From Noviherbaspirillum massiliense JC206 (GTDB taxonomy: Bacteria; Pseudomonadota; Gammaproteobacteria; Burkholderiales; Burkholderiaceae_D), in contig NZ_HE978634.1 in assembly GCF_000312045.1 (NCBI RefSeq), positions 1,348,842 through 1,412,841 of the forward strand: a DNA stretch of 64,000 nt, written 5' to 3'. Positions 7,985-47,855 of this stretch are shown here, piece after piece. The stretch's first letter is position 1. Every line of letters starts with the position of its first letter. Made by a program: the position numbers and the translations under genes. The notes under the pieces are model-generated. The model saw only the letters and a program-made list of their open reading frames with translations, was not told the origin of the DNA and did no database searches.

Positions 7985-8002
7985 TGTCGAGCTGTTTTAC
8001 AG
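7985..8002 (+). promoter_or_regulatory. Near-copy of the PEP-CTERM upstream element
   Basis: Reads TGTCGA-GCTGTT-TTACAG, one base off the TGTCGG-N6-TTACAG found before the three PEP-CTERM genes. It points toward the GMC oxidoreductase. The downstream GG (8058) and TTTGC (8069-8073) are 14 rather than 12 bases apart, so a sigma-54 promoter is not supported here. Confidence 0.45.
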
Positions 8003-8068: not shown

Positions 8069-8084
8069 TTTGCGATTTCGCAAA
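8069..8084. promoter_or_regulatory. Palindrome TTTGCGA-TT-TCGCAAA
   Basis: Seven-bp perfect arms around TT, 169 bases upstream of the GMC oxidoreductase start. It is a possible operator for an unidentified dimeric regulator; no second copy was noticed. Confidence 0.35.
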
Positions 8085-8252
8085 GATTTCGCTTTCGGCG
8101 GACATACACTCTTTGACGCGCAGATCCTGCGCAGATTCGATCCCCGCCCGCCAGACGGCTGGAACATTCCGCACCATGCAGTTCGTTGGGGCAACACCGC
8201 ATCTAACCACCAACAAGAACATGAAAAACAGAGACAGGGAAGGTATTCGGCC

Positions 8253-22283: not shown

Positions 22284-23798
22284 TCATTGCCTGTTGAATC
22301 CGAGTGCCGCCTCGAGAGGCTGCAGGTGCCCGGCCAGGAAGCTGCGCATCGCGGCGCGCGCTTCTTCCGGACTGTAAGTGTAGGGCGCGAAAAGGAAAAG
22401 CGCCGCGCCGTCATCACCGCGCAGCAACAGCTTTTCCTTGGCCTGCAGGAGCTTGCCGACATAGTCGCTGGCGGTGAACCGCCCATCTATCCAGTACCAC
22501 GACCAGACCAGCAGCTGGCTGGATCCGGCGCTGATGCGAGCCTCGCGCAGGGCCAGCTCGTGTCCGGCTACCGATTCGATCCGGCCCACGGTGGCCGCAT
22601 GCAGCCAGCGCTGCTCCCCTTCGGGAACGAAGCGGTTCGACGAACTGATCAGCTGTGCGTCCGGACGCTGGTTGCGATAAAACATGACGGAGACACCGAC
22701 GTGCTCCTGCCCGCGCTCGAAGAAGCGCCGCAGTTCCATGTTCGAAGGCATGAACCCGGGCTTCCAGTCGGTGAACGGCTTGGCTTCCTTCCACTCCGGT
22801 GCGAAGCTGCTCAGGGAAGGCGTCGCCGGATTGAAGGAAGCGCGGTCCACCATACCTGCGTACCAGGGCCAGAATGCCAGAAAGGCGATGCTGGCAATGG
22901 CCGCCCCTGCAATCGATGGCATTCGCACCGAAGCGGATGCTGCATGGGTACGAGGCGCAGGCGGGACAGCTTCATCTTCCCGCCAGAAGCTGCCGAGCCA
23001 GAACATCAGGAACATCACGATGCCGAAGAACACCCAGCCGTAGATCAGATGGTCCACACCCGCTGCAAGGCGGTTGCCGCTGAGATGGCCGATCATCACG
23101 ATCAGGTAGGCGCGCACGCCGTTGGCGATGATGGGAACGACGATCGACAGCAGCACGAACGCGGCGCGGCGCAGGCGCGAACGGTAATTCAGGTAGGCGT
23201 ACAGGCAGCCGAGGGTAAAGGAAGAAATCAGGTAACGCACGCCGCTGCAGGCCTCGACCACCGACCAGCTGCCGGTAGGGATTTCGAAATGGCTGCCGTT
23301 GCGCAGCACCGGAATCCCGGTCCACTGCAGTGCCGCCACGGTGAAGTCGGCGGTGAAGCGGATCAGGGGATCGATGAAGATTTCGCCGAAGGGCACTGCC
23401 AGCAGCAGGAAGAACAAGGGAAATGCGAGCGTCCTCGCCACTTTCATGCCGGCCACGGCCAGTACGATGAGCGGCAGCATCGCCACAAGCATGTATTGCC
23501 GCACTACCTGCACATTGGCGAGTTCGGCCATCAGCCAGCCGAAGCCGGCCGCGGCCAGGAACACGAGTGCAGGCCAGCACGGCTTCAGGGGAAGCTGCAT
23601 CAGTTCTTCGCGCCGGCGCCAGACGAGCCACAGGCTGATCGGCGCGATGACATAGCCATGCACGAAGGTTTCCGAGCTGTTCCAGATCGAAACGATGGAG
23701 CGGGCGGTATCGAGATAAATGGTCAGAGGCGCCAGCAGCGCAACTGCCAGGACGATGCCGGGCAGGACATGGGCCGGATATGGGCGCGGAGCGTTCAC
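22284..23798 (-). CDS. xrtA: Exosortase A fused to an EpsI domain
   Basis: A 504-residue inner-membrane transpeptidase-like enzyme that would cleave PEP-CTERM proteins at the PEP motif and pass them on to a surface acceptor. The N-terminal 280 residues hold about eight membrane helices with the proposed active site: Cys184 in VVEACSGVR, Arg229 in IIANGVRAYL and His250 in VDHLIYGW. From about residue 300 a periplasmic EpsI-type domain follows, as in betaproteobacterial XrtA proteins. GTG 23798 was chosen because AAGGA lies six bases upstream and the codon overlaps the stop of the preceding gene (GTGA). Its substrates are probably the three PEP-CTERM proteins of this window and others outside it. 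Confidence 0.96.
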   Translation of the reverse strand: MNAPRPYPAHVLPGIVLAVALLAPLTIYLDTARSIVSIWNSSETFVHGYVIAPISLWLVWRRREELMQLPLKPCWPALVFLAAAGFGWLMAELANVQVVRQYMLVAMLPLIVLAVAGMKVARTLAFPLFFLLLAVPFGEIFIDPLIRFTADFTVAALQWTGIPVLRNGSHFEIPTGSWSVVEACSGVRYLISSFTLGCLYAYLNYRSRLRRAAFVLLSIVVPIIANGVRAYLIVMIGHLSGNRLAAGVDHLIYGWVFFGIVMFLMFWLGSFWREDEAVPPAPRTHAASASVRMPSIAGAAIASIAFLAFWPWYAGMVDRASFNPATPSLSSFAPEWKEAKPFTDWKPGFMPSNMELRRFFERGQEHVGVSVMFYRNQRPDAQLISSSNRFVPEGEQRWLHAATVGRIESVAGHELALREARISAGSSQLLVWSWYWIDGRFTASDYVGKLLQAKEKLLLRGDDGAALFLFAPYTYSPEEARAAMRSFLAGHLQPLEAALGFNRQ

Positions 23799-25078
23799 GG
23801 CGCTTCCTTTACCGGCAGCTTTGGTTCTTGCAGCGCCGCTGGCACGCTGCTCTGGGCTGCTTCCGGCAATGGGCTCGTCGACACTGAAGACGGCTCGAGC
23901 AGGGCATCGACTTTGGCGAGCTGGCTGCCCCATCCGTATGCCGCTTCGACGCGCGCCCGCGCGCGCAGGCCTATGGCGTCGTCAGGCCGGGCCAGCAGCG
24001 TCGCCACCTCCTCGGCGAATTGCCGCGCATCCCCGGCCAGCAGCAAGTCGCGACCGGGCTGCGCTTCTATGCCTTCGAGGGCCGCAGGCGAGACGACCAC
24101 CGGCTTTGCCATGGCCATGGCTTCGAGCACCTTGTTCTGGATGCCGCGCGCGATGCGCAGCGGTGCCACTGCCATCCTTGCATGCGCGAGATAGGGGCGC
24201 ACGTCCGGCACGGTGCCGGTCACGCGCACGCCCGGCAGATCCGCCAGCGCCTTGACCTCTGGCGTCGGGCGCGAGCCCACGACATAGAAACAGGCATTGG
24301 GATGCCTTGCGCGCACGGCGGGCAGGACGTCGTGCGCAAACCATGTCACCGCGTCGACGTTCGGCCAGTAATCCATTGCGCCGGTAAACACGATGGCGGA
24401 TTCGTGAGCCGGATAGGGATTCGGATATTCCCGCTCCGACGCGAAATATCCGGTATCCACGCCGTTGCCGAAGAAGCCGATCCTGTTAACACTTTCCGGC
24501 GCAAGCCGGCGGAACAGCGCCGCCTCTGCTTCGGACACGAACAGGGAAGCGTCGAAGGCCCGTGCTACCTGGCGCTCGTAGCGAAGCAGCCGGCGCGCTT
24601 CGCGCCTGTAGATGGCACGCATCGGCCATCTGGCGCGGCGCGCATATTGCGCCCACTTGTCGGAATCGACATCGACGAAATCGATGACGCGGCGCGCCTG
24701 CGTCATCCCCTCCACATACTGGGCCATGGCAGACGAGAACACGAGCACATGGGACACCGGATGCCTTTGCATCAGCTCATCCACCCACGACTGCAAGCCG
24801 GCGTCGCGATAGTAATCCAGCGTGAGCGGACGGCCGGCGGGCAGGGCGGCCAGGCTCTGCAGCCTTGCCCAGCGCGGGTCCAGGCGCGGGAAGCAGGTGT
24901 CCCCGCACAGCTGGCGCACCGTTCCGGCATGACGCCGGTCATCCGGGTCGTCGATGAAGGCGCCGAGATGCACATGGAAGCGCTGCGCAAGATGTTCCAG
25001 CAGATGCCAGGAACGGATCTTGTCCCCCTTGTTGGGCGGATAGGGCAGGCGATGGGCCAGGAAGAGAAGATGCTTCAT
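23795..25078 (-). CDS. Glycosyltransferase, PEP-CTERM/XrtA system (TIGR03087 type)
   Basis: A 427-residue GT-B transferase with the family start KHLLFLAHRLPYPPNKGDKIRSW, the DFVDVDSDKWAQYA segment, donor-domain strand AIVFTGAMDYWPNVDAV and APLRIARGIQNKVLEAMAMAKPVVVS with the E-x7-like donor contact. A Pro/Ser-rich tail follows residue 400. ATG 25078 starts the first strand and lies four bases after the FemAB stop. It is immediately upstream of and overlaps exosortase A, the standard order in these loci. Confidence 0.93.
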   Translation of the reverse strand: MKHLLFLAHRLPYPPNKGDKIRSWHLLEHLAQRFHVHLGAFIDDPDDRRHAGTVRQLCGDTCFPRLDPRWARLQSLAALPAGRPLTLDYYRDAGLQSWVDELMQRHPVSHVLVFSSAMAQYVEGMTQARRVIDFVDVDSDKWAQYARRARWPMRAIYRREARRLLRYERQVARAFDASLFVSEAEAALFRRLAPESVNRIGFFGNGVDTGYFASEREYPNPYPAHESAIVFTGAMDYWPNVDAVTWFAHDVLPAVRARHPNACFYVVGSRPTPEVKALADLPGVRVTGTVPDVRPYLAHARMAVAPLRIARGIQNKVLEAMAMAKPVVVSPAALEGIEAQPGRDLLLAGDARQFAEEVATLLARPDDAIGLRARARVEAAYGWGSQLAKVDALLEPSSVSTSPLPEAAQSSVPAALQEPKLPVKEAP

Positions 25079-28810: not shown

Positions 28811-28828
28811 TGTCGGTGCTTCTTACAG
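28811..28828 (+). promoter_or_regulatory. PEP-CTERM upstream element, copy A (probable PrsR site)
   Basis: TGTCGG-TGCTTC-TTACAG. The first T of TTACAG is 57 bases before the -24 GG at 28880. The same element with other spacer bases lies before both other PEP-CTERM genes. It is a natural candidate for the binding site of the sigma-54 activator PrsR (inference). Confidence 0.7.
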
Positions 28829-28878
28829 CGCGAACGAGGCCGAAGAAAAATCCCGTTAATTATCAGGCATGTAAATCT

Positions 28879-28894
28879 GGGCATTAATCCTGCT
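28879..28894 (+). promoter_or_regulatory. Sigma-54 (-24/-12) promoter of the first PEP-CTERM gene
   Basis: GGGCATTAATCCTGCT: GG at 28880-28881 and GC at 28892-28893 are exactly 12 bases apart, matching the TGGCAC-N5-TTGCA class. The expected start is near 28905, 44 bases before the ATG. Confidence 0.7.
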
Positions 28895-28948
28895 TCATGC
28901 GTTCCGGAAATTCATGCTTGAACCATAACGAACAACAAGGGATGGAGA

Positions 28949-29542
28949 ATGACTCGGCAACTCTTACGCGCCTGTACGGCGCTTGCACTGGCCGGGAGCT
29001 TTGCCAGTGCGCAGGCAGCACTGATCAATGCGCCTCTACCGGATAACGCTTACATCACGCAGAATGGCCTCGACTGGGCATGGGGATCTCCCTTGCCGGC
29101 GAGCGCGGGCATCGATCTTTCCGTCCAGGGGGCATATGGCTGGCGTCTTCCCACGCTGGAAGAACTTGCCATGGCACCGCTTGCGACGGACTTCATCTTT
29201 GACGGGGCGAACGTGCCGCTCGGCGGAACCGATGCCGTGAGCGGAGCCCGATTCACCTTCGGCAATTCGGCCCTGACCGGAGCGGCCGCATGCGCCGCCG
29301 CCTATTTCAGCAACACATACCGGCATTGCGACTGGCAGGATGGCAAGGGCCAGCTCTATGGCTTGTGGGCAGGCGACAGCGGAGCATGGTCGTTTGCCGA
29401 CCAGCTTCTCGTGCGGATCGCTGCATCCAGTCCGGATCAGGATGACACGCATGCAGCGATTCCTGAACCGGCTACGGCTGCGCTGCTTGGCGTCGGACTG
29501 CTTGGATTGTGCGGTGCCCGCCGCAGAAGGGTCAGGGGCTAG
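28949..29542 (+). CDS. PEP-CTERM sorting-domain protein, DUF1566-like body
   Basis: A 197-residue secreted protein and likely exosortase A substrate. A signal peptide ends near ASAQA (residue 23). The body shows GLDWAWGSPL and YGWRLPTLEEL, reminiscent of the DUF1566/Lcl C-terminal domain. The C-terminus is a canonical sorting signal: PEP at 172-174, a hydrophobic stretch ATAALLGVGLLGLCG, then an arginine cluster ARRRRVR. Upstream are a -24/-12 promoter (28879) and the upstream element (28811). A GGAG sequence lies close to the ATG at 28949. Confidence 0.92.
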   Translation: MTRQLLRACTALALAGSFASAQAALINAPLPDNAYITQNGLDWAWGSPLPASAGIDLSVQGAYGWRLPTLEELAMAPLATDFIFDGANVPLGGTDAVSGARFTFGNSALTGAAACAAAYFSNTYRHCDWQDGKGQLYGLWAGDSGAWSFADQLLVRIAASSPDQDDTHAAIPEPATAALLGVGLLGLCGARRRRVRG

Positions 29543-29675
29543 CCTGAAGGATCGGCATCGGCGGTATTCCGGACCTTCTGCGGGAGGTTTGCCGCTTGCG
29601 GCTGCGTTTGCATGCGGGCGGCGCAGCAAGGCCGTGCCGCTCGCACCGGAACCGGACGCGGTGTCGAACGCGCTT

Positions 29676-30518
29676 TCAGTTCTGCGGGACCAGCGGCGGC
29701 GGCAGGGTGAATTCCTGCCGGATATCCGCGATCACTTCATCGACCTCGGCCTTGCCAAAGGCGTGGAGCTCTTCCAGGCAACCCATGAGGAACAACCGGT
29801 CGCAGAGCGTGTTGATCCGGCGCGGAATGCCGCCCGAGAATTCATGGATGGCACCGTACGCTTCGGCATGCAGCGACGGATCGCCGCGCCAGCCGGCCGT
29901 GTGCAGGCGGTGTTCGATGTAGGAACGGGTTTCGGCGCAATCCATCGGCCCGAGATGGCAGCTGGCGATTACCCTTTGCCGCAGCTGTTCCATGTCCGGA
30001 CTCAGCAGGGTCTTGCGGAATTCCGGCTGGCCGAGCAGGAAGGTCTGCAGCAGGCATTTGTCGGATGTCTGGAAATTTGACAGCATCCGCAATTCCTCGA
30101 CCGCACGCGGACTGAGGTTCTGCGCCTCGTCGACCACCAGCAGGGCGCGCTTTCCATGCTGGCCGCACTGGCGCAGGAAGATTTCGAGCCGGTTCAGCAT
30201 CGTCGCCTTGCCTGCATTTTCGAAAGGAAGACCGAAGGCAGCGGCAACCGCGCGCAGGATGTCGTCCTCATCGAGATGCGTGTTCACGATCTGGGCGGCA
30301 CGCACCGTGCCGGATTCGAGCTTGCGGAACAGGTTGCGTACCAGGGTCGTCTTGCCGGCACCGACTTCGCCCGTGATGACGATGAAGCCTTCCTCCCGCG
30401 ACAGGCCGTATTCGAGGTAGGCCATGGCGCGCTTGTGCCCCTTGCTGCCGAAGAAGAAATGCGGATCGGGCTTGAGCTGGAAGGGATTGGCATCGAGGCC
30501 GTAGTATGACTCGTACAT
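29676..30518 (-). CDS. XrtA-associated ATPase, ExeA-like
   Basis: A 280-residue AAA-type ATPase (TIGR03015 type), related to ExeA/GspA. It starts MYESYYGLDANPFQLKPDP, has Walker A GEVGAGKTT at 50-58, Walker B LLVVDEAQN with Asp130-Glu131, and a SGGIPRRINTLCDR sensor-2 region. It is presumed cytoplasmic, energising or regulating export or assembly at the inner membrane. It is last in the export operon, 15 bases after the outer-membrane protein gene. Confidence 0.93.
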   Translation of the reverse strand: MYESYYGLDANPFQLKPDPHFFFGSKGHKRAMAYLEYGLSREEGFIVITGEVGAGKTTLVRNLFRKLESGTVRAAQIVNTHLDEDDILRAVAAAFGLPFENAGKATMLNRLEIFLRQCGQHGKRALLVVDEAQNLSPRAVEELRMLSNFQTSDKCLLQTFLLGQPEFRKTLLSPDMEQLRQRVIASCHLGPMDCAETRSYIEHRLHTAGWRGDPSLHAEAYGAIHEFSGGIPRRINTLCDRLFLMGCLEELHAFGKAEVDEVIADIRQEFTLPPPLVPQN

Positions 30519-30533
30519 GGCTGGACAGGCTCC

Positions 30534-32096
30534 CTAGAATCCGATCGAAACGAAAGCGGCAAGCGCATTCTCGCGAATGTCGTTGCCGGGCTGGCTGGAG
30601 TGCTGCTGGAAGTGCCGCAGCTCGACCCCGCCTTTGACTTTCGGCGCGTACTGGTGGATCAGGCCGATCCTGGCAGTCCATTGCCTGTCCGTCCGGTCGG
30701 TGATATCCGACGTGGCGCGGGTGAAGTTGGCACCGATGTTCCCGCTGGTGCGCGTGCTGAGGCGCAGGTTCCACAGGACGTCCGCTCCTACCTGATGAAG
30801 GCTGTCGGCCAGCACCAGGCTGTTCGCGGCGGCGGCGAGCTGGTCCGAATCCGGCGTCGATTCCGGCGAGCGCACGGTGCGGAAGGCGCTGAAGACGACG
30901 GTGTTTCGGACACCGCTGACGGCGACCGAGCCATTCAGGCTTTTCTGCAGGAAGACCTGGTTGGTAAAGGCGTTCACCGGATAGGAAAGCGTCGTGGGCA
31001 GGCCCGCATCCCGGATGAAATTATCGACCGTCTGCTTGCGCACGGCGGGATCGGGAATGGCCGTCGTCCAGAGCTGGTTGAGAAATCCGGCGGTGTCGAT
31101 GGCAACCGGCAGCAGGAACTGGGAACGCGCGGTCGTGATGTCTTCCCGGTAGCCGAGGCTCCAGGCGGTGCTGCGCGTGCGATGGCTGCCCGCGAAGGAG
31201 TAGGTATTGCCGAAGTAGCGCTTGCCGGCGCTGGCTTCGATGCTGGTACGGATAGTCGGCGCCCATGCTGCGCCGGCCGACCAGAATCGCCCTTCCGGCT
31301 TTTCGCCGAGCGTCGCGTAGGTGTTCCTTTCATAGCCTGCACCGGCGAACAGGCTGAACATCGGAGAAACAAGGTAGCGCAGGTTTCCCGACAAAACCTT
31401 CAGCTCGACATTGGGCCCATCGGAATAATCGATCTGCTGCTGGTCGTATTGCAGGTCCCAGCGAAGCTTTCTGAAGTCGGTGCCATTCCTCAACACCAGG
31501 AGGACGCGGTCCGACTGGCTGTCCAGCAGGTCGCCGGTATCGCTCGTGACCGAGTCGCGGCTGTAGCGCAGTTCGGAAGAAACGGTGTGGCCGAAGTCGT
31601 GACGCAGGTAGGGGCTGATGCTGTAGGTCCTTACCTCGGCACGGTTGCTGTTGCGGTTGCCGGATTCCTCGAGCCGCGGGCCGAAAGGGGAAACGCTCTG
31701 CGGGCTGATCGACGCGCCGCCATCCAGGAAGAACAGGTCCTTCAGCAGCTCGGCATTGGCGGAGGCCGACAGTTCGTGCAGAGTCATCGTGTCGCCTTCG
31801 CGCGCATAGTAGAAGTTCCGCATGGCGTACATGCCCTGCAGCTTCAGTCGGGATCCGATTGCTGCCAGCGCGATCCTCGGCGTGAGTTCGGTGATGAAAT
31901 CGCTGCGTTCCTGGCCGCGCGGCGCGAGCGTGACGTTATCGGTATAGGTTTCCCGGAGATCGATGCCGGGCAGCAGCTTCCACTCCGCGGCACCGGCCCG
32001 GCAGGGCAGAACGAGCGCTGCCGTAGCCAGGGTGCAGGCGAGCGGAATGAAAGCCCGCGGCGTGGTCCGCGACCCCATTTCAGCTGTAATACCCAT
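30534..32096 (-). CDS. PEP-CTERM system-associated outer-membrane beta-barrel protein
   Basis: About 520 residues (TIGR03016 type). A signal peptide ends near CRAGAAEW; the mature part is rich in alternating polar/aromatic strands (for example LRETYTDNVTLAP, YDQQQIDYSDGPNVELK, RFWSAGAAWAPTIR) and ends in FVSIGF with the C-terminal phenylalanine expected for BAM-dependent outer-membrane proteins. Probably the outer-membrane porin-like component for the polysaccharide. ATG 32096 is preceded by GGACGG at five bases; ATG 32078, just after the kinase stop, is equally possible and would shorten it by six residues. Confidence 0.88.
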   Translation of the reverse strand: MGITAEMGSRTTPRAFIPLACTLATAALVLPCRAGAAEWKLLPGIDLRETYTDNVTLAPRGQERSDFITELTPRIALAAIGSRLKLQGMYAMRNFYYAREGDTMTLHELSASANAELLKDLFFLDGGASISPQSVSPFGPRLEESGNRNSNRAEVRTYSISPYLRHDFGHTVSSELRYSRDSVTSDTGDLLDSQSDRVLLVLRNGTDFRKLRWDLQYDQQQIDYSDGPNVELKVLSGNLRYLVSPMFSLFAGAGYERNTYATLGEKPEGRFWSAGAAWAPTIRTSIEASAGKRYFGNTYSFAGSHRTRSTAWSLGYREDITTARSQFLLPVAIDTAGFLNQLWTTAIPDPAVRKQTVDNFIRDAGLPTTLSYPVNAFTNQVFLQKSLNGSVAVSGVRNTVVFSAFRTVRSPESTPDSDQLAAAANSLVLADSLHQVGADVLWNLRLSTRTSGNIGANFTRATSDITDRTDRQWTARIGLIHQYAPKVKGGVELRHFQQHSSQPGNDIRENALAAFVSIGF

Positions 32097-32958
32097 AACC
32101 GTCCGCGTCGGCAAAGCCGCGGCTCTTGTTGTAGATGAGGCTGACATTGGTGCAGGCCTCGATCTTGCGCAGCGCATCCCTGAGCGCGTTCTGCGTGGTT
32201 TTTTCCGCCTCCACCACGACCGCGATCTGTCCCATCTGGCTCGCCAGTACGCGGGCCTCGCTGGTCAGGAGCAGCGGCGGCGAATCGAAGATCACGATGC
32301 GGTCGGAATAGCGGCTGCCGATCTCGGCCAGCAGGCGGCTCATTCCCTGGCTCGCCAGCAGCTCGGTGGCATTCTTGTCGCTTTTGCCGGCGGGAAGAAT
32401 GGAAAGCCGTTCGACATTGGTCCTGAGCAGGACATCGGCCACGTCAAGCTGTTCATCGAGCAGCAGGTCCATCAGGCCCGGTCCGGATTCCAGCCCGAGC
32501 GTGCGCAGCACCGACGGCCGTGCCACGTCGGCATCGACCAGCAGGACGCGGTGGTCCACTTCCATCGCGATGCTCATCGCCAGGTTGATTGCGCAGAAGG
32601 TCTTCCCCTCGCCCGGCAGGGCGCTGGTCACCATGATCAGGTTGCTGCGATTGCCTGCGTCCTCGCCGGTACGCGCCGCGTTCTTCAGGAGCGGACGCTT
32701 GATGAAGCGGAATTCTTCCGCCACCTGGGATTTCTCGACGTTCGGCACGACCATGCCGTGCTGCCGCAGGCGCGCAAGATCCATGTCCTGCCGTGGTGAG
32801 ACTTTCCGCGGCTGGCGGACTTCTTCCTTGTGCACGGGCTTGATCTCGCGCTCGATCGTGCGCTCCAGGATTGCCGGAGGCGGCACTGCCTCCAGGCGAG
32901 GCGCTGCATCTCTCGTGTTTTGCTGAAGCCGGCTCGCAGCTTTTTCGATAATGCTCAC
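32080..32958 (-). CDS. XrtA-associated tyrosine autokinase (CpsD/CapB-like)
   Basis: A 292-residue BY-kinase (TIGR03018 type). A basic, disordered N-terminal 80 residues is followed by Walker A SALPGEGKT (112-120), Walker A' LLVDADVARPS (139-149) and Walker B VIFDSPPLLL. The C-terminal tyrosine cluster is short, GYGYY at 287-291. It would cycle between phosphorylated and free forms with the chain-length protein encoded directly upstream to control polymer length. The overlap of its stop with the outer-membrane protein gene indicates one operon. Confidence 0.94.
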   Translation of the reverse strand: MSIIEKAASRLQQNTRDAAPRLEAVPPPAILERTIEREIKPVHKEEVRQPRKVSPRQDMDLARLRQHGMVVPNVEKSQVAEEFRFIKRPLLKNAARTGEDAGNRSNLIMVTSALPGEGKTFCAINLAMSIAMEVDHRVLLVDADVARPSVLRTLGLESGPGLMDLLLDEQLDVADVLLRTNVERLSILPAGKSDKNATELLASQGMSRLLAEIGSRYSDRIVIFDSPPLLLTSEARVLASQMGQIAVVVEAEKTTQNALRDALRKIEACTNVSLIYNKSRGFADADGYGYYS

Positions 32959-33063
32959 AGGTTCTCCCGGTGAATTTGGTGTCTTGTCGGTGCACTTCCC
33001 ATTGCGCTGCCCCGAATGGGGCGGCGGATGGAGGCTCGATCCCGTGGGAAGGAAGCGAACCGT

Positions 33064-34590
33064 TTATGCCTTCAGCATGATGGTCGATATCAGCCCGCTG
33101 TAGAGGACGACCAGCAGCATGCAGGCGAGGCTGAAGGCATGCAGGCCTTTCCTGCGCCGCGCCTTTTCCTGCTCCGTCCAATGCATGGCCACGGCGCCGA
33201 GTATCGGCAGGCCGGTTGCCTCGCGCAGGCTGTACTGGGTAACGAAAGTCGGCCGGACACGGCTCATGAGGAAGGCGGCGCCGACGCCCGCGAGCAAGGA
33301 GCCCAGCAGGACGCCTGCGAGCAGGAGCGGGCGGTTCGGGGCGGAAGGCTTGAGCGGCACCATGGGGGGATCCACCACCCGGAAAGTCATCATTTCGGTC
33401 GTAGCGGTCAACTCGCCCGACAGCTTCGCGGCTTCACGGCGGCCGAGGAGTTTTTCGTAATTGTCCTTGTTGATCTGGTAGTCGCGGTTCAGCTGGGCGA
33501 GCTGCGCTTCCACTTCCGGCATGGCGACATTGAGTGCCTTCAGGTGATTGACGCGTGCCGCATATTCTTCCACGCGGGCGCGCATGGAAGCGACCTTCGC
33601 TTCCGCTGCCGCCAGCGAGACATTGAGCTGCTGCAGCATCGGGCTGTAATTGATCCCGGGGTCGGCCGGCTTCTTCGTCTTTGCTTCCTCCAGCTTGCGC
33701 GCTTCAAGCTGCGCGATCAGGCGCTTGGTGGAAACGATGTCCGGATGCTCATCCGTGTACTGCATTTGCAGGGAATCGAGGTTCTTGTTCAATGCCTGGA
33801 TGCGGGAATCGATTTCCGCATTGGCGATTGCGGGGGTGACGGTCGAGTCAGCGCCTTGTGCGTCGTCGCCGCTGATCTGCCGCTTGATGGCATTGCGCGC
33901 CTGCTCGGCTTCACGCAGTTCCAGCTTCGCCTGGTTCAGGTTTTCCGTGGCCTCGAACAGCTTGGCGCCATAATCGCCGCCCTGGCGGGAAACCAGCCCG
34001 GAATTCTTCAGCTTGAAATCCTTGAGGGCGTTCTCCGCCGCAATCAGCTTGTCTTCATACATCTTGATCTGCTCTTCGATGAAGTTGACCGCCTTTTCCG
34101 ATTCCTTCTTCTTGTCGCCGATGCCGCCCTCGACAAAGATGGTCAGCAGGGAGCGCACGACTTCCTTGGCCAGCCTGGGATCGCGATTGCTGTAGGCGAG
34201 CGTGTAGATGTTGTCGCGGGCATTGCCGCCGAGCGTGATGTCGTTGCTCAGCTTGTCGATGATGGCTTCCTGCTCCTTGGGCGTCTTGGCCTTGACGTCG
34301 AGGTCGACCATGCGGACGAGCCTTTCCAGGTTCGGCCGGCTGAGCAGGGTGCGGCTCATGATGGCGACCTGCTGTTCCACATTGGGAACGCTTGTCATGC
34401 CCGACAGCAGCGGCTTCAGTATGCTCTGGGTGTCCACATAGACGCGCGCGCTTGCCTGGTATTTGTCCGGCATCAGGAAGACCGCGATGCCTCCGGCAAC
34501 CGCCACGATCCATGCCGTGGCGACGGCATGCCAGCGGTATTTCCAGATTCCCTTGAGATGCGAGACCAGCTGGGCGATTTGTTCTTCCAT
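33064..34590 (-). CDS. XrtA system polysaccharide chain-length determinant (Wzz/PCP type)
   Basis: A 508-residue inner-membrane protein (TIGR03007 type). Helix one lies near residues 24-43 (WHAVATAWIVAVAGGIAVFL), followed by a large periplasmic region with long coiled coils (about 160-390), then PSAPNRPLLLAGVLLGSLLAGVGAAF as the Pro-rich second helix. A third hydrophobic segment closes the protein, FSLACMLLVVLYSGLI. It would set chain length together with the autokinase. ATG 34590 was preferred over TTG 34599 because the AGGGAG site fits it better. First gene of the export operon. Confidence 0.93.
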   Translation of the reverse strand: MEEQIAQLVSHLKGIWKYRWHAVATAWIVAVAGGIAVFLMPDKYQASARVYVDTQSILKPLLSGMTSVPNVEQQVAIMSRTLLSRPNLERLVRMVDLDVKAKTPKEQEAIIDKLSNDITLGGNARDNIYTLAYSNRDPRLAKEVVRSLLTIFVEGGIGDKKKESEKAVNFIEEQIKMYEDKLIAAENALKDFKLKNSGLVSRQGGDYGAKLFEATENLNQAKLELREAEQARNAIKRQISGDDAQGADSTVTPAIANAEIDSRIQALNKNLDSLQMQYTDEHPDIVSTKRLIAQLEARKLEEAKTKKPADPGINYSPMLQQLNVSLAAAEAKVASMRARVEEYAARVNHLKALNVAMPEVEAQLAQLNRDYQINKDNYEKLLGRREAAKLSGELTATTEMMTFRVVDPPMVPLKPSAPNRPLLLAGVLLGSLLAGVGAAFLMSRVRPTFVTQYSLREATGLPILGAVAMHWTEQEKARRRKGLHAFSLACMLLVVLYSGLISTIMLKA

Positions 34591-34826
34591 CTTCTCCAAG
34601 GCTCCCTGATATATTTTGGCGGCGTGCTTTTCGATTGTTAATTCTTGGTTGCACGCTGATTAGGCAATAGAAGGTTACCTGTATCCCCCCGGTAAGATTT
34701 GATATCGGTCAATGGTAAGAATGACAATCAAACCGGGCGAGCGAAGCAGGAAGATGCACAAATGAAATACTTATGGCGCTCACCCTGAGCGGGTGATGCA
34801 GTTGGAAGAGACAAAAGCACTGCACC

Positions 34827-34848
34827 GCTTCCGGCGTTTGCCGGAAGC
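34827..34848 (-). terminator. Perfect hairpin downstream of PEP-CTERM gene
   Basis: GCTTCCGGC-GTTT-GCCGGAAGC: nine pairs, four-base loop. It is the second of two hairpins after the stop at 34886 and is followed (minus strand) by a T-rich stretch about eight bases on. The two together probably end the PEP-CTERM transcript before the export operon. Confidence 0.55.
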
Positions 34849-34855
34849 AGATTCA

Positions 34856-34878
34856 CGGGAGCGGCGCAGCCGCTCCCG
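34856..34878 (-). terminator. Perfect hairpin immediately after PEP-CTERM stop codon
   Basis: CGGGAGCGGC-GCA-GCCGCTCCCG: ten perfect pairs around three bases, seven bases after the stop codon. No direct T-run, so it may stabilise the 3' end while the next hairpin terminates. Confidence 0.5.
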
Positions 34879-34885
34879 CTAACCA

Positions 34886-35635
34886 TCAGCGGCGGCGCCG
34901 GACAACACCAAGGCCGGCCAGCCCGATGCCGAGCAGGGCCAGCATGCCGGGTTCCGGCACATTGCCGGTCGGCGGTGGCGGAGTGTCTGCCTTGACGTTG
35001 GGTTCGCTCAGCGAGGTGCCGTACTGGAAGCTCACGTTAGTGATGGCGCCGGGAGCGGAGGGGTCGAATGCCGCATCGATGCCGGTGAGACGAAACACTA
35101 CCGAGCTTTTGACAAGGGGCACGTTACCCGTTAACTGATTGTTGCCGGTAGCGGGATTGTCGGCAGCCGGCAGCAGCGCGTAATTGAATCCGGCGACGGC
35201 GGACGGCGGATCGAGATCAGGACCCGGGAAGGTCGCGCCGCCGAACAGTCCGAAGCCGGATGAACTGATTCCCTTATTCGCACCATTCGGTCCGCTGATG
35301 CCGTTGAGATAAGCCCATTCGCCGCCGACCACGCCGCCGGCCGGCTGCCCTTGGGGATCAAAGAGCACCGTGCTTCCGGTATTGAGTATCGCCGAGCCTG
35401 ACCCGAGAGTCGGGTTGCCGGCCAAAGTGAAGAACACCGCGGTCAGCAGGTCGGCCGGCACCAGCGCATCGCCGCCGATATTGCTCAGGGTGACGACGAG
35501 GTCGCTGCCGACGACATCGAAACTCGCTGATGCGGCGAGATTGCCGGAGGTGCCGGTAAAGGTGATAGGTGCAGCATTGGCGCTGCCCAAAGCGAGAAGT
35601 GCAGATGCGAGGGCGATTGAGAATAGTTTTTTCAT
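34886..35635 (-). CDS. PEP-CTERM sorting-domain protein
   Basis: A 249-residue secreted protein. The signal peptide is KKLFSIALASALLALGSANA; the body is Gly/Ser/Ala-rich beta-type sequence without catalytic motifs (ITFTGTSGNLAASASFDVVG, ITNVSFQYGTSLSEP), resembling recurring exosortase-dependent surface families. The sorting signal is VPEPGMLALLGIGLAGLGVV followed by RRRR at the very end (PEP at 227-229). ATG 35635 begins the signal peptide. The gene has its own -24/-12 promoter (35696-35711) and upstream element (35783-35800), so it is a separate unit from the gene at 35910. Confidence 0.93.
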   Translation of the reverse strand: MKKLFSIALASALLALGSANAAPITFTGTSGNLAASASFDVVGSDLVVTLSNIGGDALVPADLLTAVFFTLAGNPTLGSGSAILNTGSTVLFDPQGQPAGGVVGGEWAYLNGISGPNGANKGISSSGFGLFGGATFPGPDLDPPSAVAGFNYALLPAADNPATGNNQLTGNVPLVKSSVVFRLTGIDAAFDPSAPGAITNVSFQYGTSLSEPNVKADTPPPPTGNVPEPGMLALLGIGLAGLGVVRRRR

Positions 35636-35695
35636 TTTTGATCTTTCAGTATGCGAACGCGAATCAGATACCCGGTTGTTGCTGGCGGCTGATAA

Positions 35696-35711
35696 AGCAA
35701 GCGCCATGCCG
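35696..35711 (-). promoter_or_regulatory. Sigma-54 promoter of the second PEP-CTERM gene
   Basis: Minus strand CGGCATGGCGCTTGCT: GG at 35710-35709 and GC at 35698-35697, 12 bases apart, with GGCA and TTGCT matching the consensus. The start would fall near 35685, 50 bases before the ATG. Confidence 0.8.
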
Positions 35712-35782
35712 AAACGACAAGTCATTCATTGCAAAGGGATTTTTCCGGCTGCCCCTTCAGTTGCCGCTGTTCGACGGCTTCG

Positions 35783-35800
35783 CTGTAAAAAAATCCGACA
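35783..35800 (-). promoter_or_regulatory. PEP-CTERM upstream element, copy B
   Basis: Minus strand TGTCGG-ATTTTT-TTACAG. TTACAG begins 78 bases before the -24 GG, 21 bases (two helical turns) farther than in copies A and C, so it faces the same side of the DNA. Confidence 0.7.
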
Positions 35801-35865
35801 TAGATATGTGCATTGCCGGTGTGGCGGCGTTTGTCTGCTTTCGCCGTTTCATGCTGAAGCAAACA

Positions 35866-35881
35866 GCGGCCCGAAGGCCGC
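35866..35881 (-). terminator. Terminator-like hairpin with TTCG loop
   Basis: On the minus strand GCGGCC-TTCG-GGCCGC is followed by TGTTTGCTTC. It lies 28 bases after the stop of the third PEP-CTERM gene and probably ends that transcript. Confidence 0.6.
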
Positions 35882-35909
35882 CGGATGTTCGCTGGATTAC
35901 CGGCTCTTA

Positions 35910-36563
35910 TCAAAGACTGGAGCGGCGGCGACGTGCGACGCCGATCAAGCCCAGCAAGCCTGCGCCGAGAAGCATCGAGGTTGCAGGCTCGGGAACCGGC
36001 GCTGCGGTCAGCGTGACGTTGGCGCCGTTGGTGATGGAGCCGGTGCGGTTGAAATACAGGTCGCCGATATCGACGACGAATGCGCCGCCATCGCCAAAGC
36101 TGACGGTGACCGGGCTGAAGTCGATGAAGTAGTCGGTGGCGTTGTCGCCGTTCACTGTGCCGGCAAAAGCGCCGGTGATGGCAACGTTTTGCACGAGTGC
36201 GGAGAGCGGATTCGTAAAGACGAGATTCGCAGTGACGCCGAGGTTGTTGCGCTCGTCGCCGCCGACACCGCAACCGGTCAGCAAGTCGACCAGGATATTG
36301 CCGGAGTTGATGCAGCTTTCATTGAGCTGCACGCGGCCGAACAGGAAAGACTGGGTTTCGCCGACACCGAGGTCGAAGGACTGCGGCGTCACCAGGTTGG
36401 TGAAGGTGGCATCGAGCTGGCCGCTTCCGGTGCCGTAGCCGGATCCGACTGTGAAGTAGCCGCTTGTGATGCTGAAGGGGACAGCGCTGGCTGACATCGA
36501 CAGCGTCAGGGCGACGGCACCCAGGCCGGCGGACAGCCATTTTGATAAACGCGGGAATTTCAT
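35910..36563 (-). CDS. PEP-CTERM sorting-domain protein
   Basis: A 217-residue secreted protein. The signal peptide is in KWLSAGLGAVALTLSMSASA; the mature region has two cysteines (NESCINSGN, LLTGCGVGG) that may form a disulfide. The sorting signal VPEPATSMLLGAGLLGLIGVA ends in RRRR (PEP at 191-193). No enzyme motif is seen; a structural or matrix role is likely. Upstream are a -24/-12 promoter and an element of the TGTCGG type; a CTCATGG-AGAA ribosome region precedes ATG 36563. Confidence 0.93.
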   Translation of the reverse strand: MKFPRLSKWLSAGLGAVALTLSMSASAVPFSITSGYFTVGSGYGTGSGQLDATFTNLVTPQSFDLGVGETQSFLFGRVQLNESCINSGNILVDLLTGCGVGGDERNNLGVTANLVFTNPLSALVQNVAITGAFAGTVNGDNATDYFIDFSPVTVSFGDGGAFVVDIGDLYFNRTGSITNGANVTLTAAPVPEPATSMLLGAGLLGLIGVARRRRSSL

Positions 36564-36633
36564 TTTTTCTCCATGAGATTGATTGTTGATTGTCAGGCCT
36601 CCCTTGCCTTGAGGAGCAAGGTCTTACCTCATG

Positions 36634-36649
36634 AGCAAACCTTGTTCCA
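36634..36649 (-). promoter_or_regulatory. Sigma-54 promoter of the third PEP-CTERM gene
   Basis: Minus strand TGGAACAAGGTTTGCT, one of the best matches to TGGCAC-N5-TTGCA in the window, with GG at 36648-36647 and GC at 36636-36635 (12 bases). Expected leader of about 60 bases. Confidence 0.8.
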
Positions 36650-36699
36650 TGTCATACGGTGATTGATTCATAAGGACTTTTTTTGGCAGGGGCCGGCGA

Positions 36700-36717
36700 C
36701 TGTAAGGATCTCCGACA
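36700..36717 (-). promoter_or_regulatory. PEP-CTERM upstream element, copy C
   Basis: Minus strand TGTCGG-AGATCC-TTACAG, 57 bases before the -24 GG, the same spacing as copy A. Here the outer bases extend it to a dyad, CGACTGT on the left and ACAGTCG on the right, which suggests that the true site is an inverted repeat with TGT and ACA as core. Confidence 0.72.
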
Positions 36718-36966: not shown

Positions 36967-39750
36967 TCAGAGTTGCGCCAGCATGGCACGCGCTTCGGTG
37001 ATGGCGGAAAAATCCTTGCCCGAGCCCAGCAGTCGCTCCAGTTCCTGCCGCGCCCGGAACTTGTCGCCCGATTTCATCAGGCCGCGTGCCAGGTGATAGC
37101 GGAGCTCCGGCGCGTCGGGCGCGAGGGATACGGCCTTCTCGAGTAGCGGCAGTCCGCGCGCGATGTCGTTCCGCTCCACCAGTATCCACCCGAGTGTGTC
37201 CAGCACGGCGGCATTGGCCGCATCGATGCGGTACGCCTTTTCGGCATATTCCAGCGCCTGCGCATCCTTCTCCTGGTGATAGGCCCAAGCGATGTTGTTC
37301 AGCGCTGCCAGGTTGTTCGGTTGCTGGTCCAGCACGGCGCGCAACTGCCGGATGGCCGCCTTGTTCTGCCCATCGGCCATCTGCGTTTCCGCAAAGTACA
37401 GGCGGGTCGTCACATCAGTCGGATGATCGCTGAGCCACTTCGTGATGCGTGCATCCGCTTCCTTGTTCTTTCCGGCGGCGCGCAGCGCCTCATGGAGCTT
37501 GACGATCAGCGGACCTTGTCCACCGAGGGCGAGCGCCTGCTCGTAGGCATGCGCGGCGTTTGCCGGTTTCTTTTGCGCCGTCAGGATCTCCGCTTCCAGC
37601 ACGTGGCCGGCCGGGGATTTCGCACGCTGCTTCTGGACGGTGCGCGCGATGGCGAGCGCCTGTTCGTATCTTCCCTTCGTGATTTCCAGCTTTGCCAGCG
37701 CTGCCTGTGCCTCGAGGTAATCCGGTTTCAGGGCCAAGGCCTTTTTGAGGCTGTCGGTCGCCGCAGCCGGGTCCTGGCCGGATGCCTGCAACAGGGCGAT
37801 GCGGTAATGCACGGGCGCGGAGGCCGGCAGCAGGGTGGCAAGCTTCTGCAGGCTTTCCAGTGCTTCGGCCTTGTCGCCGGCGGCTTGCTGGACGTTGGCC
37901 AGCAGTTCGAGCGCTTCCGGCCTGGACGGATTGGTGAGATGCATCTTCCGGGCGAGGGTGAGCGCCTTCAGTTTTTGACCCGCGCGCAGATATTGGTCCG
38001 CAAGCAGGGCAGCGGGCTCGATCGCGTCCGGATGCTCGGTGCTGGCGCGCTCAAACCAGGACAGGGCCTGTTCCGGCTGGCCCTGTGCCGCGGCGAGCCG
38101 GCCGAGTGCGAGCATGGCCTGGACATTTTTCTTGTCCTTGTCGAGCAAGGCTTCGAAGCGCTTTCTCGCATCCTCCGGCTTCTTGTCCTGCAGATCGAGT
38201 TGCGCCAGTCCGGCGGCAGCGGGGAAATACACGGGATTCAGTTCCAGCGCCTTTTCGAGGCTGGTGCGCGCGCTGCCGCGATCCTTCTTTGCCAGATAGA
38301 TGGCAGCCTTCAGGTTCTGTATCAGAGGACTGTCGGGTTGCCGGCTCTCGAGCGTGCGCGCGGCGGCAAGGGCCTTGTCATGTTTCCCGGCGCGCAGGTA
38401 GGTCATGGCGAGCATCAGTCCGGCCTGCGGCGATTTGGGATCGAGGCTGGTCGCCGCCTCGAGGTCGAGCAGCGCGCTGGTCTCGTCGCCCTGTGCCAAC
38501 CGGCTCTTTCCGAGGGAAGTGCGGATGATTGCATCGTTGGGCGCAAGCGCGCTCGCTTTTTCGAGGTAGGCGCTGGCCCTGGCGAAGTCACGCGTCGCCA
38601 TGTGCGACTCGCCGGCGAGAGAAAGCAATTGCGCGTCCTGCTGCGACTTCGCGAGCACCGCGTCCAGCAGTTCGGCGGCACGTTGCGGCTCGCCGCTCTT
38701 CAGCAGACTGGCCGCAAGCAGCTTGCGTGCATACAGGTCGCCCGGATTGCGGTCCAGGTAGGTTTTCAGGTGTACTTCGGCCTGCCTGAGCGAGCCCAGT
38801 GCATACTCGGTTGCGCCGGCCAGGAGCAGGCTGGGCATGTGGTCGGGCGCTACCTTCAGTACGCGCTGCAGCGATTCCAGCGCCGCAGCATGCCGGCCCT
38901 GCCTGTAGTCGAGCAGAGCCTGGGTGTACAGGCCCATGAGGCTGTTCGGCTGCGTCTTGCGCACGGCCTCGAGATCGGCCCGCGCCGCTTCGAGCTGTCC
39001 CCTGGCGATTGCCATGTTGGCCCTGGAAATGCGCGCATTGAAATGATCGGGCTTGAGCCTGATCGCCTCGTCGAGGGCGGCGAGCGAGGCATCGGCCTCG
39101 CCCTGCATGCGCAGGAGTTCCGCCTTGAGCTGCCAGGCATCGGCATTCGACGGATTCTTGTCCACCGCCTGCCCGGCAAGGCGCAGCGCTGCTTCGGCAT
39201 CCTTGTCATTCCATGCAAGCTTTGCCAGGCCGATCAGCGCGCCGGGAAAATCGGCATGGTCCTTTCTTGCCGCTTCGAATGCTTCGCGTGCTTCCCGGGT
39301 CTTGCCAAGCGCCAGCAATGCATCGCCGCGCAATGTCAGCAGGGTCGGCTCGCTTCCCGCCGCAAGGGCTGGCCGGGTTTCATCCAGTACCTTCTGGAAC
39401 TGGCCTTGCATCAGCAGGGCTTTCGCCAGCCCGCCCAAGGCTTCCGGGCGGCTCATGCCGAGTTCGATCGCCTTGCGAAATTCTTTTTCTGCCGACTGGG
39501 CATCGCCCGTCTCCAGATACAGGCTGCCCAGCAGGTAGCGCGGTTCATGATCGTCCGGCTTCTTCTCGATCGCGTTTTTCAGCTGGATGATGGCGGCTTT
39601 CGTGTCGCCCTTCTGCTGGTACTGACGTGCATCGGCCAGCAGCGCATCCACGCTCTGCGGGCTGCCGCATCCTGTGACGGTGCCGGCGAGCAGGAGCGCA
39701 CCGGAAATCATGACCACGCTTGCGCTGCGCTTGTGATGGATGAAACGCAT
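36967..39750 (-). CDS. prsT: PEP-CTERM system TPR-repeat lipoprotein PrsT
   Basis: A 927-residue lipoprotein (TIGR02917 type) made almost entirely of tetratricopeptide repeats of 34 residues, about two dozen of them. The lipobox is TVTGC (Cys28). It probably acts as a periplasmic or outer-membrane scaffold for assembly of the polysaccharide export complex, like AlgK/PgaA-type TPR proteins. ATG 39750 has GGGAG eight bases upstream. A -24/-12 promoter lies at 39902-39917. It is divergent from the export lipoprotein. The long plus-strand open frame across the same DNA is a shadow of high-GC codon bias. Confidence 0.94.
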   Translation of the reverse strand: MRFIHHKRSASVVMISGALLLAGTVTGCGSPQSVDALLADARQYQQKGDTKAAIIQLKNAIEKKPDDHEPRYLLGSLYLETGDAQSAEKEFRKAIELGMSRPEALGGLAKALLMQGQFQKVLDETRPALAAGSEPTLLTLRGDALLALGKTREAREAFEAARKDHADFPGALIGLAKLAWNDKDAEAALRLAGQAVDKNPSNADAWQLKAELLRMQGEADASLAALDEAIRLKPDHFNARISRANMAIARGQLEAARADLEAVRKTQPNSLMGLYTQALLDYRQGRHAAALESLQRVLKVAPDHMPSLLLAGATEYALGSLRQAEVHLKTYLDRNPGDLYARKLLAASLLKSGEPQRAAELLDAVLAKSQQDAQLLSLAGESHMATRDFARASAYLEKASALAPNDAIIRTSLGKSRLAQGDETSALLDLEAATSLDPKSPQAGLMLAMTYLRAGKHDKALAAARTLESRQPDSPLIQNLKAAIYLAKKDRGSARTSLEKALELNPVYFPAAAGLAQLDLQDKKPEDARKRFEALLDKDKKNVQAMLALGRLAAAQGQPEQALSWFERASTEHPDAIEPAALLADQYLRAGQKLKALTLARKMHLTNPSRPEALELLANVQQAAGDKAEALESLQKLATLLPASAPVHYRIALLQASGQDPAAATDSLKKALALKPDYLEAQAALAKLEITKGRYEQALAIARTVQKQRAKSPAGHVLEAEILTAQKKPANAAHAYEQALALGGQGPLIVKLHEALRAAGKNKEADARITKWLSDHPTDVTTRLYFAETQMADGQNKAAIRQLRAVLDQQPNNLAALNNIAWAYHQEKDAQALEYAEKAYRIDAANAAVLDTLGWILVERNDIARGLPLLEKAVSLAPDAPELRYHLARGLMKSGDKFRARQELERLLGSGKDFSAITEARAMLAQL

Positions 39751-39901
39751 CCCTTGTCTCCCTGTGGATTCTTGTCGTTGGTGGCGGATGCGAAAGGCCA
39801 CGCATCCTTGTTGAGTGAAAAGAGTTTATGCGAGGCATCCGGCGCGGCTCATTGTGGCAACGCATACCGTTGAGATTTATCAAAGCAGCAACATACCGGA
39901 C

Positions 39902-46458: not shown

Positions 46459-47811
46459 TTATCGGATGCCATGCCGGCTCATGAGGTCGTACAAGGTCGG
46501 GCGGCTCACCCCAAGCAGCTCGGCTGCCTTGACGATATTGCCGTCGACCCGGGCGAGCGACTTCACCACGGCAAGATACTCCGCCTTTTCCCGTACCTGC
46601 CGCAGGTTGATGTGTTCGTCGTTCGCCGGTATGGCCGGCAGGCCCAGGTCATCCGCGCTGATCCTCGCGCCATCGGCCATGATGACCGCGCGCTTGATGC
46701 AGTTTTCCAGCTCGCGCACATTGCCGGGCCAGTGATAGGCTTCGATGGCGGCCAGGGCATCCTGTGCGAAGCTGAGCGCGGTGCGGCCCTGCTGCGCGCA
46801 GAACCGGTTCCTGAAGTGGTGCGCGAGCAGAGCGGCGTCGCCGGCGCGCTTGCGCAGGGGGGGAATCGGCAGCACGATCTCGCTCAGACGGTAATACAGG
46901 TCTTCCCGGAACCTTCCCTGCCTGACCAGTTCCTGCAGGTTCTGATGCGTGGCGCAGACGATGCGCACATCCACCTGGATTTCCCTCCTGCCGCCGATCC
47001 GCTCGATGACGCGTTCCTGCAGGAAGCGCAGCAGCTTGGCCTGCAGGGAGAAGGGAAGGTCGCCCACTTCATCGAGGAAGAAGGTGCCGCCGTCGGCGAG
47101 TTCGATCTTGCCCGGCGTTTGCTTCACGGCACCGGTGAAGGCGCCTTTCTCGTAGCCGAACAATTCGCTTTCGAGCAGGGTTTCCGGAATGGCTGCGCAG
47201 TTGATCGCCACGAAGCGCCGGGCCCGGCGCGGGCTCAGGTCATGCACTGCTCGCGCCAGCAACTCCTTGCCGGTACCGCTCTCGCCGAGCAGCATGACGG
47301 TCGCCGCCGAACCTGCCACCTTTTCCACGCTGCGGCAGAGCTTGGCCATGCCCGGGTCGCGGCTGATGATGCCGCCCAGCGGGGAGTCGGCTGCGGAAAC
47401 CATCAGGCGCCGGTTCTCCTGCTGCAGTGCATGCAGGTGGAAGGCGCGATCGACAGTGAGCTTCAGTACGGTGGCATCAAACGGCTTCTGATGGAAATCA
47501 TAGGCGCCCATCGCCACCGCCTTGACGGCATTGGCGCGATCCTGGTTGCCGGTCAGGACGATCAACCGAGTATCCGGCGCCAGCGACAGGATCTCTTCCA
47601 GCGTGGCCAGTCCTTCGCTCGCGCCATCGGGATCAGGCGGCAGGCCGAGATCCATCGTGACCACCGCCGGCTCGTGGCGCCGCAGCTGGGCAAGGGCGCT
47701 GGCGCGGTCGCCTGCCACCAGCACTTCGTAGGAGTCGAAGCTCCAGCGCAACTGCTTCTGCAATCCCGGGTCATCCTCGACGATCATGAGTTTTCTTTTT
47801 TCCTGGGTCAC
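46459..47811 (-). CDS. prsR: PEP-CTERM response regulator PrsR, sigma-54 activator
   Basis: A 450-residue NtrC-type regulator (TIGR02915 type). The receiver has Asp13-Asp14 and the phosphoacceptor Asp54 (VTMDLGLPP); the AAA+ domain has Walker A GESGTGKE at 176-183, the sigma-54 contact GAFTGA at 223-228 and Walker B GGTFFLDEVGDL; a Fis-type helix-turn-helix closes the protein (VKAAELLGVSRPTLYDLMSRHGI). GTG 47811 was chosen because GGGAG lies eight bases upstream. It would bind upstream elements such as those at 28811, 35783 and 36700 and drive the -24/-12 promoters. It follows prsK. Confidence 0.95.
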   Translation of the reverse strand: MTQEKRKLMIVEDDPGLQKQLRWSFDSYEVLVAGDRASALAQLRRHEPAVVTMDLGLPPDPDGASEGLATLEEILSLAPDTRLIVLTGNQDRANAVKAVAMGAYDFHQKPFDATVLKLTVDRAFHLHALQQENRRLMVSAADSPLGGIISRDPGMAKLCRSVEKVAGSAATVMLLGESGTGKELLARAVHDLSPRRARRFVAINCAAIPETLLESELFGYEKGAFTGAVKQTPGKIELADGGTFFLDEVGDLPFSLQAKLLRFLQERVIERIGGRREIQVDVRIVCATHQNLQELVRQGRFREDLYYRLSEIVLPIPPLRKRAGDAALLAHHFRNRFCAQQGRTALSFAQDALAAIEAYHWPGNVRELENCIKRAVIMADGARISADDLGLPAIPANDEHINLRQVREKAEYLAVVKSLARVDGNIVKAAELLGVSRPTLYDLMSRHGIR

Positions 47812-47855
47812 GCTGCATCTCCCTGAGATCGGTTTCTGCGATTTCTTTGCTGTTT

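Follow-up and report, generated by a model that had tools for sequence, protein, structure and literature searches.

What sets the distance between an activator site and the promoter that it serves, when the same two elements recur before many genes of a regulon? A 64,000-nucleotide stretch of the genome of Noviherbaspirillum massiliense JC206 (assembly GCF_000312045.1, contig NZ_HE978634.1, positions 1,348,842 to 1,412,841), which we call the window, raises this question. Here three genes for exported surface proteins of the PEP-CTERM type (28949, 35635 and 36563) are each preceded by a box, TGTCGG-N6-TTACAG, and by a sigma-54 promoter, GG-N10-GC, at distances that differ by 21 bp or not at all. 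Throughout, distance means how many bases the first T of TTACAG lies before the GG of the -24 element. We consider it probable that these are promoters of the PrsR regulon, of the published PEP-CTERM-box type, in which the activator is looped to sigma-54 polymerase across quantised distances with the help of a bend made by integration host factor (IHF).

Box and promoter in the window and the host genome

The exact box occurs three times in the window, once before each PEP-CTERM gene, and matches with at most one mismatch number four, compared with 0.15 expected from 100 dinucleotide shuffles. In its 17-nt form, TGTCGG-N6-TTACA, it ends in TTTACA in one copy and CTTACA in two. Because GG-N10-GC is very common by itself (642 matches on the plus strand and 577 on the minus strand of the window), only the combination of box and promoter is informative. 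A preliminary description of the window had placed both elements before all three genes, and we located them where it put them, with TIGR02595 above its cut-off in all three products. The distances that it gave for genes 28949, 35635 and 36563 (57, 57 and 78) are correct as values, but the last two were swapped, so that the order is 57, 78 and 57; counted from the end of the box to GG, the spacers are 52, 73 and 52 bases. Its account of PrsR, encoded in the same locus, as a protein with a GAFTGA loop and a Fis-type helix-turn-helix agrees with the domains that we found: a receiver (Response_reg PF00072, 60.5 bits), a sigma-54 interaction domain (Sigma54_activat PF00158, 238.6 bits) and HTH_8 (PF02954, 28.7 bits), with GAFTGA in the translation. 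Both rpoN and ihfA are encoded in the genome (ihfA 154 bits, cut-off 120.25); for IHF, the search covered ihfA.

The preliminary description had also proposed a scan of the complete genome, in which a lack of enrichment of the two elements ahead of PEP-CTERM genes would count against it. Four PEP-CTERM genes exceed the cut-off in the host genome (4.19 Mb, 3 contigs), and three of them are in the window. We searched it with a composite pattern, TGTCG-N7-TTACA followed by GG-N9-TGCW, and obtained matches at four places and none in the control; three of the four are the window promoters, each before a PEP-CTERM gene, so that the scan does not refute the proposal. The remaining place (L074, C1:699986-700081, minus strand), in phase at distance 69, precedes an amidase-like open reading frame, judged by eye, and not a PEP-CTERM gene. 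The fourth PEP-CTERM gene (L031, C2:927669-930740), which lies outside the locus, has a box with two mismatches, also at distance 69. Two other searches were set aside. A pattern allowing two mismatches was too loose, giving 243 matches among those listed versus 294 in the reversed control, and a stricter composite, which limited the spacer to about 60 bases and required YGG, for that reason missed two of the three window promoters.

Composite promoters follow PrsR across the family

We extended the composite search to 195 genomes of the host's family, of which 79 encode PrsR above the cut-off and 116 lack it. The matches follow PrsR: 449 of the 478 lie in PrsR-positive genomes and 29 in PrsR-negative ones, and at least two matches occur in 59/79 PrsR-positive versus 4/116 PrsR-negative genomes (Fisher p 1.6e-27). 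The reversed pattern gave 28 matches across all 195 genomes (summed by eye from the table). This comparison bears out the earlier proposal of a shared activator element and sigma-54 promoter with PrsR as the likely activator.

The distance between box and promoter is quantised

To compare spacings, we used 150 of the 478 family matches, namely those listed; 146 listed matches from a scan of the class outside the family (370 genomes, 273 genera), which are those left among the matches listed there once four from the host's own genome were dropped; and 124 matches from a second family scan covering 87-147 bp. Band heights in the two family scans are not comparable, since the first covers 150/478 matches. 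In the first scan, distances cluster at 57-59, 67-70 and 78-80 with little between except for four matches at 75, and the three bands hold 125 of the 134 listed matches from PrsR-positive genomes and 5 of the 16 from PrsR-negative ones. Outside the family, the matches listed form bands at 57-58, 67-71 and 79-82. The longer scan added two family bands, at 90.8 and 101.5, with 45 and 34 matches in PrsR-positive genomes and just 2 and 1, over nearly the same ranges, in PrsR-negative genomes; between 107 and 147 bp (27 PrsR-positive and 15 PrsR-negative matches) there was no further band.

Among the matches listed, PrsR-positive family genomes thus have five bands, near 57.6, 68.4, 79.3, 90.8 and 101.5 bp. 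From 50 to 108 bp, 193 of their 210 matches fall on 30 ridge positions and 12 on 20 valley positions. The period fitted to the five bands is 11.04 bp (95% range 10.85-11.25, genome bootstrap), and the phasing resultant is 0.681, whereas the highest value among 3000 smoothed resamples was 0.231; outside the family it is 0.648, with a highest resampled value of 0.320. A period of 10.5 bp is excluded for the five family bands, but not by the first three alone (10.83, range 10.5-11.23). These data suggest that the box-promoter distance changes mainly in increments of roughly one helical turn. The 21-bp difference in the window, which the preliminary description had taken for two helical turns, is thereby one instance of a wider pattern. 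Together, the comparisons support a shared scheme in which an activator element and a sigma-54 promoter stand in rotationally phased spacing, with PrsR as the likely activator.

An IHF-like element lies between box and promoter

To look inside the spacers, we collected sequences from matches with distances of at least 50 (60 out of 137 in the family, 100 out of 137 in the class), together with 60 further loci and 40 of the 79 outer-band matches; sampling was by genome blocks and not at random. The 220 loci and the window gave 198 distinct records; a PEP-CTERM gene follows in 96 by a strict regular expression and in 108 when variant endings are admitted, and such calls miss some substrates. The 108 substrate-linked promoters also settled the role of the full dyad (CGACTGT...ACAGTCG) reported at copy C, the box of gene 36563: it is present there as described, but in just one of the 108, copy C included, and the bases flanking the box are near even across the set. 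We dropped it from the proposed code.

A motif search made without prior expectation found YAASYNNTTGATW in 77 of 106 spacers, and 71 of these 77 begin 31-34 bp before GG. Its log-likelihood was 333 compared with 48-58 for shuffled spacers; the numbers of starts were uneven (30 for the real spacers, 4 per shuffled run), and the gap is large. YAASYNNTTGATW is the reverse complement of the IHF consensus, given as 5'-WATCARXXXXTTR-3' (PMC7962754), plus one extra preference for G/C at the fourth position. No such element was mentioned in the preliminary description.

We then scored matches to IHF over the nine consensus positions of WATCAAN4TTR. In 101 non-redundant promoters, 46 matches of at least 8/9 lie at -35 to -30, whereas 500 letter shuffles gave 1.0 on average and never more than 6. 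In 239 promoters, outer bands included, there are 114 forward matches of at least 8/9, of which 70 lie at -34 to -31 and 32 at -45 to -42 (30 of them within -45 to -43); most matches thus start near 32.5 or 44 bp upstream of the -24 GG. The distance from box to IHF match in the same promoters peaks at 24-26, 34-37, 46-51 and 56-58. Since both sets of positions are peaked, each of the two intervals varies in increments of roughly one turn. The consensus is clear across the regulon and at the fourth PEP-CTERM gene of the host, L031 (9/9, 33 bp before GG), and weak in the three window promoters.

Several observations weigh against a phased, IHF-bent promoter. The limits of the bands were chosen by eye after the first histograms. 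The period outside the family is 11.69 bp (11.24-12.13), barely touching the family range, and because the estimates from five bands, three bands and outside the family differ, the exact value is not settled. Matches to IHF in reverse orientation are only partly slotted, with 15 of 47 at -20/-21 and the others scattered. In the window, gene 28949 has at best 6/9 forward (-31) and 7/9 reverse (-19), gene 36563 just 7/9 reverse (-16, -24 and -35), and even the site of gene 35635, 8/9 reverse at -20, is counted among the weak ones. Finally, nine substrate-linked promoters have no match above 6/9 on either strand, and eight of these nine are still in the bands; phasing is therefore independent of a recognisable IHF site, and IHF may not be needed for it.

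These last points also feed the alternative that survives best, namely genuine phasing with a middle element that is bound, instead of by IHF, by PrsR itself or by a different architectural protein such as HU or some dedicated bender. In its favour are the eight promoters that keep phase without a match above 6/9, the reverse matches scattered except at -20/-21, and the G/C preference at the fourth motif position, which the IHF consensus leaves open. On the other side, the strongly conserved motif positions match the reverse complement of the IHF consensus, save one, and IHF binding between the enhancer region and an RpoN promoter is described as common (PMC7962754). We judge this alternative unlikely, and favour IHF as the probable source of the bend in many promoters.

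Relatedness of the promoters and a possible sigma-70 start

Bands could also arise through common descent, or through a mutation process acting on repeat units, with no selection for helical phase. The family genomes are related, similar promoters recur within genomes, and four matches at distance 75 are near-identical promoters from four genomes. We therefore filtered the records to less than 60% identity over the 50 bp before GG; 190 of 198 stayed, and the bands persisted. In the filtered set, 101 of 102 substrate-linked promoters with distances of at least 50 are in bands (means 57.4, 68.6 and 79.7), as are 165 of all 180 records with such distances, substrate-linked or not. The three similar bands among the matches listed outside the family likewise speak against descent, which we regard as a highly improbable source of the pattern.

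We give hardly any credence to a third possibility, that a sigma-70 type promoter in the spacer drives the genes and the sigma-54 elements are incidental, although TTGATT could serve as its -35 element and the TTGAT within the motif is close to the -35 consensus TTGACA. Conservation of the -24/-12 elements extends to bases not specified in the search (in the 68 band, for example, 91% of the 69 promoters have C after GG), and pepA of Aquincola has its start mapped to a -24/-12 promoter and requires RpoN1 (PMC9850573).

Features of the window and other PrsR-type promoters

Table 1. Promoter elements, PEP-CTERM genes and Prs/XrtA genes in the window (window coordinates)
Feature	Position	Strand	Details
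PrsR box (PEP-CTERM box) of gene 28949	28811..28828	+	exact TGTCGG-N6-TTACAG
Sigma-54 promoter (-24/-12) of gene 28949	28880..28893	+	GG-N10-GC, context GGGCATTAATCCTGCT; box T to GG = 57
PEP-CTERM protein gene 28949, 197 aa	28949..29542	+	TIGR02595 24.1 bits, cut-off 16
PrsR box of gene 35635	35783..35800	-	exact TGTCGG-N6-TTACAG
Candidate IHF-like site of gene 35635, starts 20 bp before GG	35718..35730	-	reverse orientation, 8/9 of WATCAAN4TTR, at -20/-21 slot
Sigma-54 promoter (-24/-12) of gene 35635	35697..35710	-	GG-N10-GC, context CGGCATGGCGCTTGCT; box T to GG = 78
PEP-CTERM protein gene 35635, XDD4 family, 249 aa	34886..35635	-	NF045504 214.4 bits, TIGR02595 24.4 bits
PrsR box of gene 36563 (copy C)	36700..36717	-	exact TGTCGG-N6-TTACAG inside extended dyad CGACTGT...ACAGTCG
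Sigma-54 promoter (-24/-12) of gene 36563	36635..36648	-	GG-N10-GC, context TGGAACAAGGTTTGCT; box T to GG = 57
PEP-CTERM protein gene 36563, 217 aa	35910..36563	-	TIGR02595 22.6 bits
prsR, PEP-CTERM-box response regulator, predicted activator	46459..47859	-	TIGR02915 745.7 bits, cut-off 502.6
prsK, histidine kinase partner of PrsR	47856..49955	-	TIGR02916 826.6 bits
prsT, TPR-repeat protein of PEP-CTERM system	36967..39801	-	TIGR02917 933.5 bits
xrtA exosortase, predicted processor of PEP-CTERM proteins	22284..23933	-	TIGR03109 353.7 bits

The features of the locus are collected in Table 1. The window also has a one-mismatch box, TGTCGAGCTGTTTTACAG, at 7985-8002 (plus strand), upstream of an open reading frame at 8070-9863 (plus strand); no GG-N10-GC was found in the 196 bases from the start of this box.

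Some PrsR-type promoters precede genes of other kinds. Seven loci with distances of 93-102 (L275, L282, L284, L285, L288, L290 and L294; alignment A1) stand before a non-PEP-CTERM gene whose products, 194-280 aa long, have a start of twin-arginine-like type (RRRFxxAG); most also carry an SPGYWKN-like motif. At E 0.1, neither NCBIfam nor Pfam gave a match for the five of these proteins that were scanned. A protein of this type has one match each in 48 of the 195 family genomes (E 1e-6), all 48 PrsR-positive, and none in the genome of the window at the same threshold. These genes may form a new class of export under PrsR control. Outside the family, some in-phase promoters (L163, L182 and L204, for example) precede proteins whose C-terminus reads VPVPAAVWLFGSGLxGLxGxxRRK; this variant of the sorting signal escaped the strict expression.

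Discussion

The kind of promoter described here is already known, and the phasing rule is the addition. For 99 of the 167 proteobacterial PEP-CTERM genes that they considered, Haft et al. 2006 reported an upstream 17-nt motif 1 ending in TTTACA and then a sigma-54 -24/-12 motif 2, with a spacer of mean 62.8 nt (standard deviation 10.6, range 32-92); they described PrsK, PrsR and PrsT, and on the basis of phylogenetic profiles proposed that PrsR is the likely activator (PMC1569441). As TGTCGG-N6-TTACA is also 17 nt long, we take it to be motif 1, going by the text description and not the logo. The window resembles that system in its 17-nt box, its GG/GC motif, the PEP-CTERM gene downstream in three of three cases and its PrsK, PrsR and PrsT genes, and its spacers of 52, 73 and 52 lie within 32-92, allowing a difference of a few bases because the count of Haft et al. 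ends where a 17-nt motif 2 begins. Binding of PrsR to motif 1 was a prediction in that work and is a prediction here, where the comparison shows that PrsR and box occur together. A single PEP-CTERM gene, pepA of Aquincola tertiaricarbonis RN12, has a mapped -24/-12 start, RpoN1 dependence and a predicted upstream enhancer, with PrsR named as merely probable and no spacing analysis in the parts of that paper available to us (PMC9850573). The element and promoter are therefore a rediscovery, and the preliminary description was right to caution that part of its proposal might be known. In the main text of Haft et al. 2006, the terms IHF, integration host factor, period and phas do not appear, and helical appears only in the title of one reference (PMC1569441). 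We found no report of phased spacing or of IHF at PEP-CTERM promoters in the open-access literature, to which the search was confined, subscription papers being outside its scope.

We propose the following mechanism, whose protein steps are drawn from what is known for NtrC-type activators. PrsK probably phosphorylates PrsR, which would occupy the 17-nt box and, with the intervening DNA looped out, reach sigma-54 RNA polymerase waiting at -24/-12. IHF probably binds and bends the intervening DNA, its own distance to the promoter falling in helical steps. A loop that is short and bent would confine PrsR to one face of the helix, so that only distances near 57, 68, 79, 91 and 101 bp would be allowed. 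Shifting the box by whole turns would keep the face; half-turn spacings are rare, and promoters out of phase would be expected to lose activity.

The PrsR box reads TGT-N11-ACA, one base longer in the middle than the NifA site, TGT-N10-ACA. The order of activator site, IHF site and -24/-12 elements is that of IHF-assisted sigma-54 promoters of the NtrC/NifA type (PMC7962754); what differs here is that many natural promoters of one predicted activator have both intervals in preferred turns. A period of about 11 bp is likewise known from DNA loops in vivo (PMC8501960), including those of the Escherichia coli lac repressor, for which two fits gave helical repeats of 11.60 and 11.08 (PMC1762422). 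The Lac series, however, was built in the laboratory around a repressor, whereas the PrsR spacings are natural and belong to an activator.

A bolder proposal, on which our own opinion is evenly balanced, is that the regulon serves as a helical ruler found in nature: a single activator would work through a rigid, IHF-bent loop, evolution would accept almost no promoters except those with activator-IHF and IHF-promoter distances both on whole turns, at least five slots of total length would result, and the spacings would report the helical repeat in vivo (about 11.0 bp in the family). Slot and IHF orientation may then set promoter strength for different surface proteins. A natural data set on helical phasing with an activator and IHF, at such a scale, is relevant to studies of DNA looping and of sigma-54 activation. 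For the regulon itself, one geometric rule for the whole could predict new promoters, flag out-of-phase false ones and extend the regulon beyond PEP-CTERM genes.

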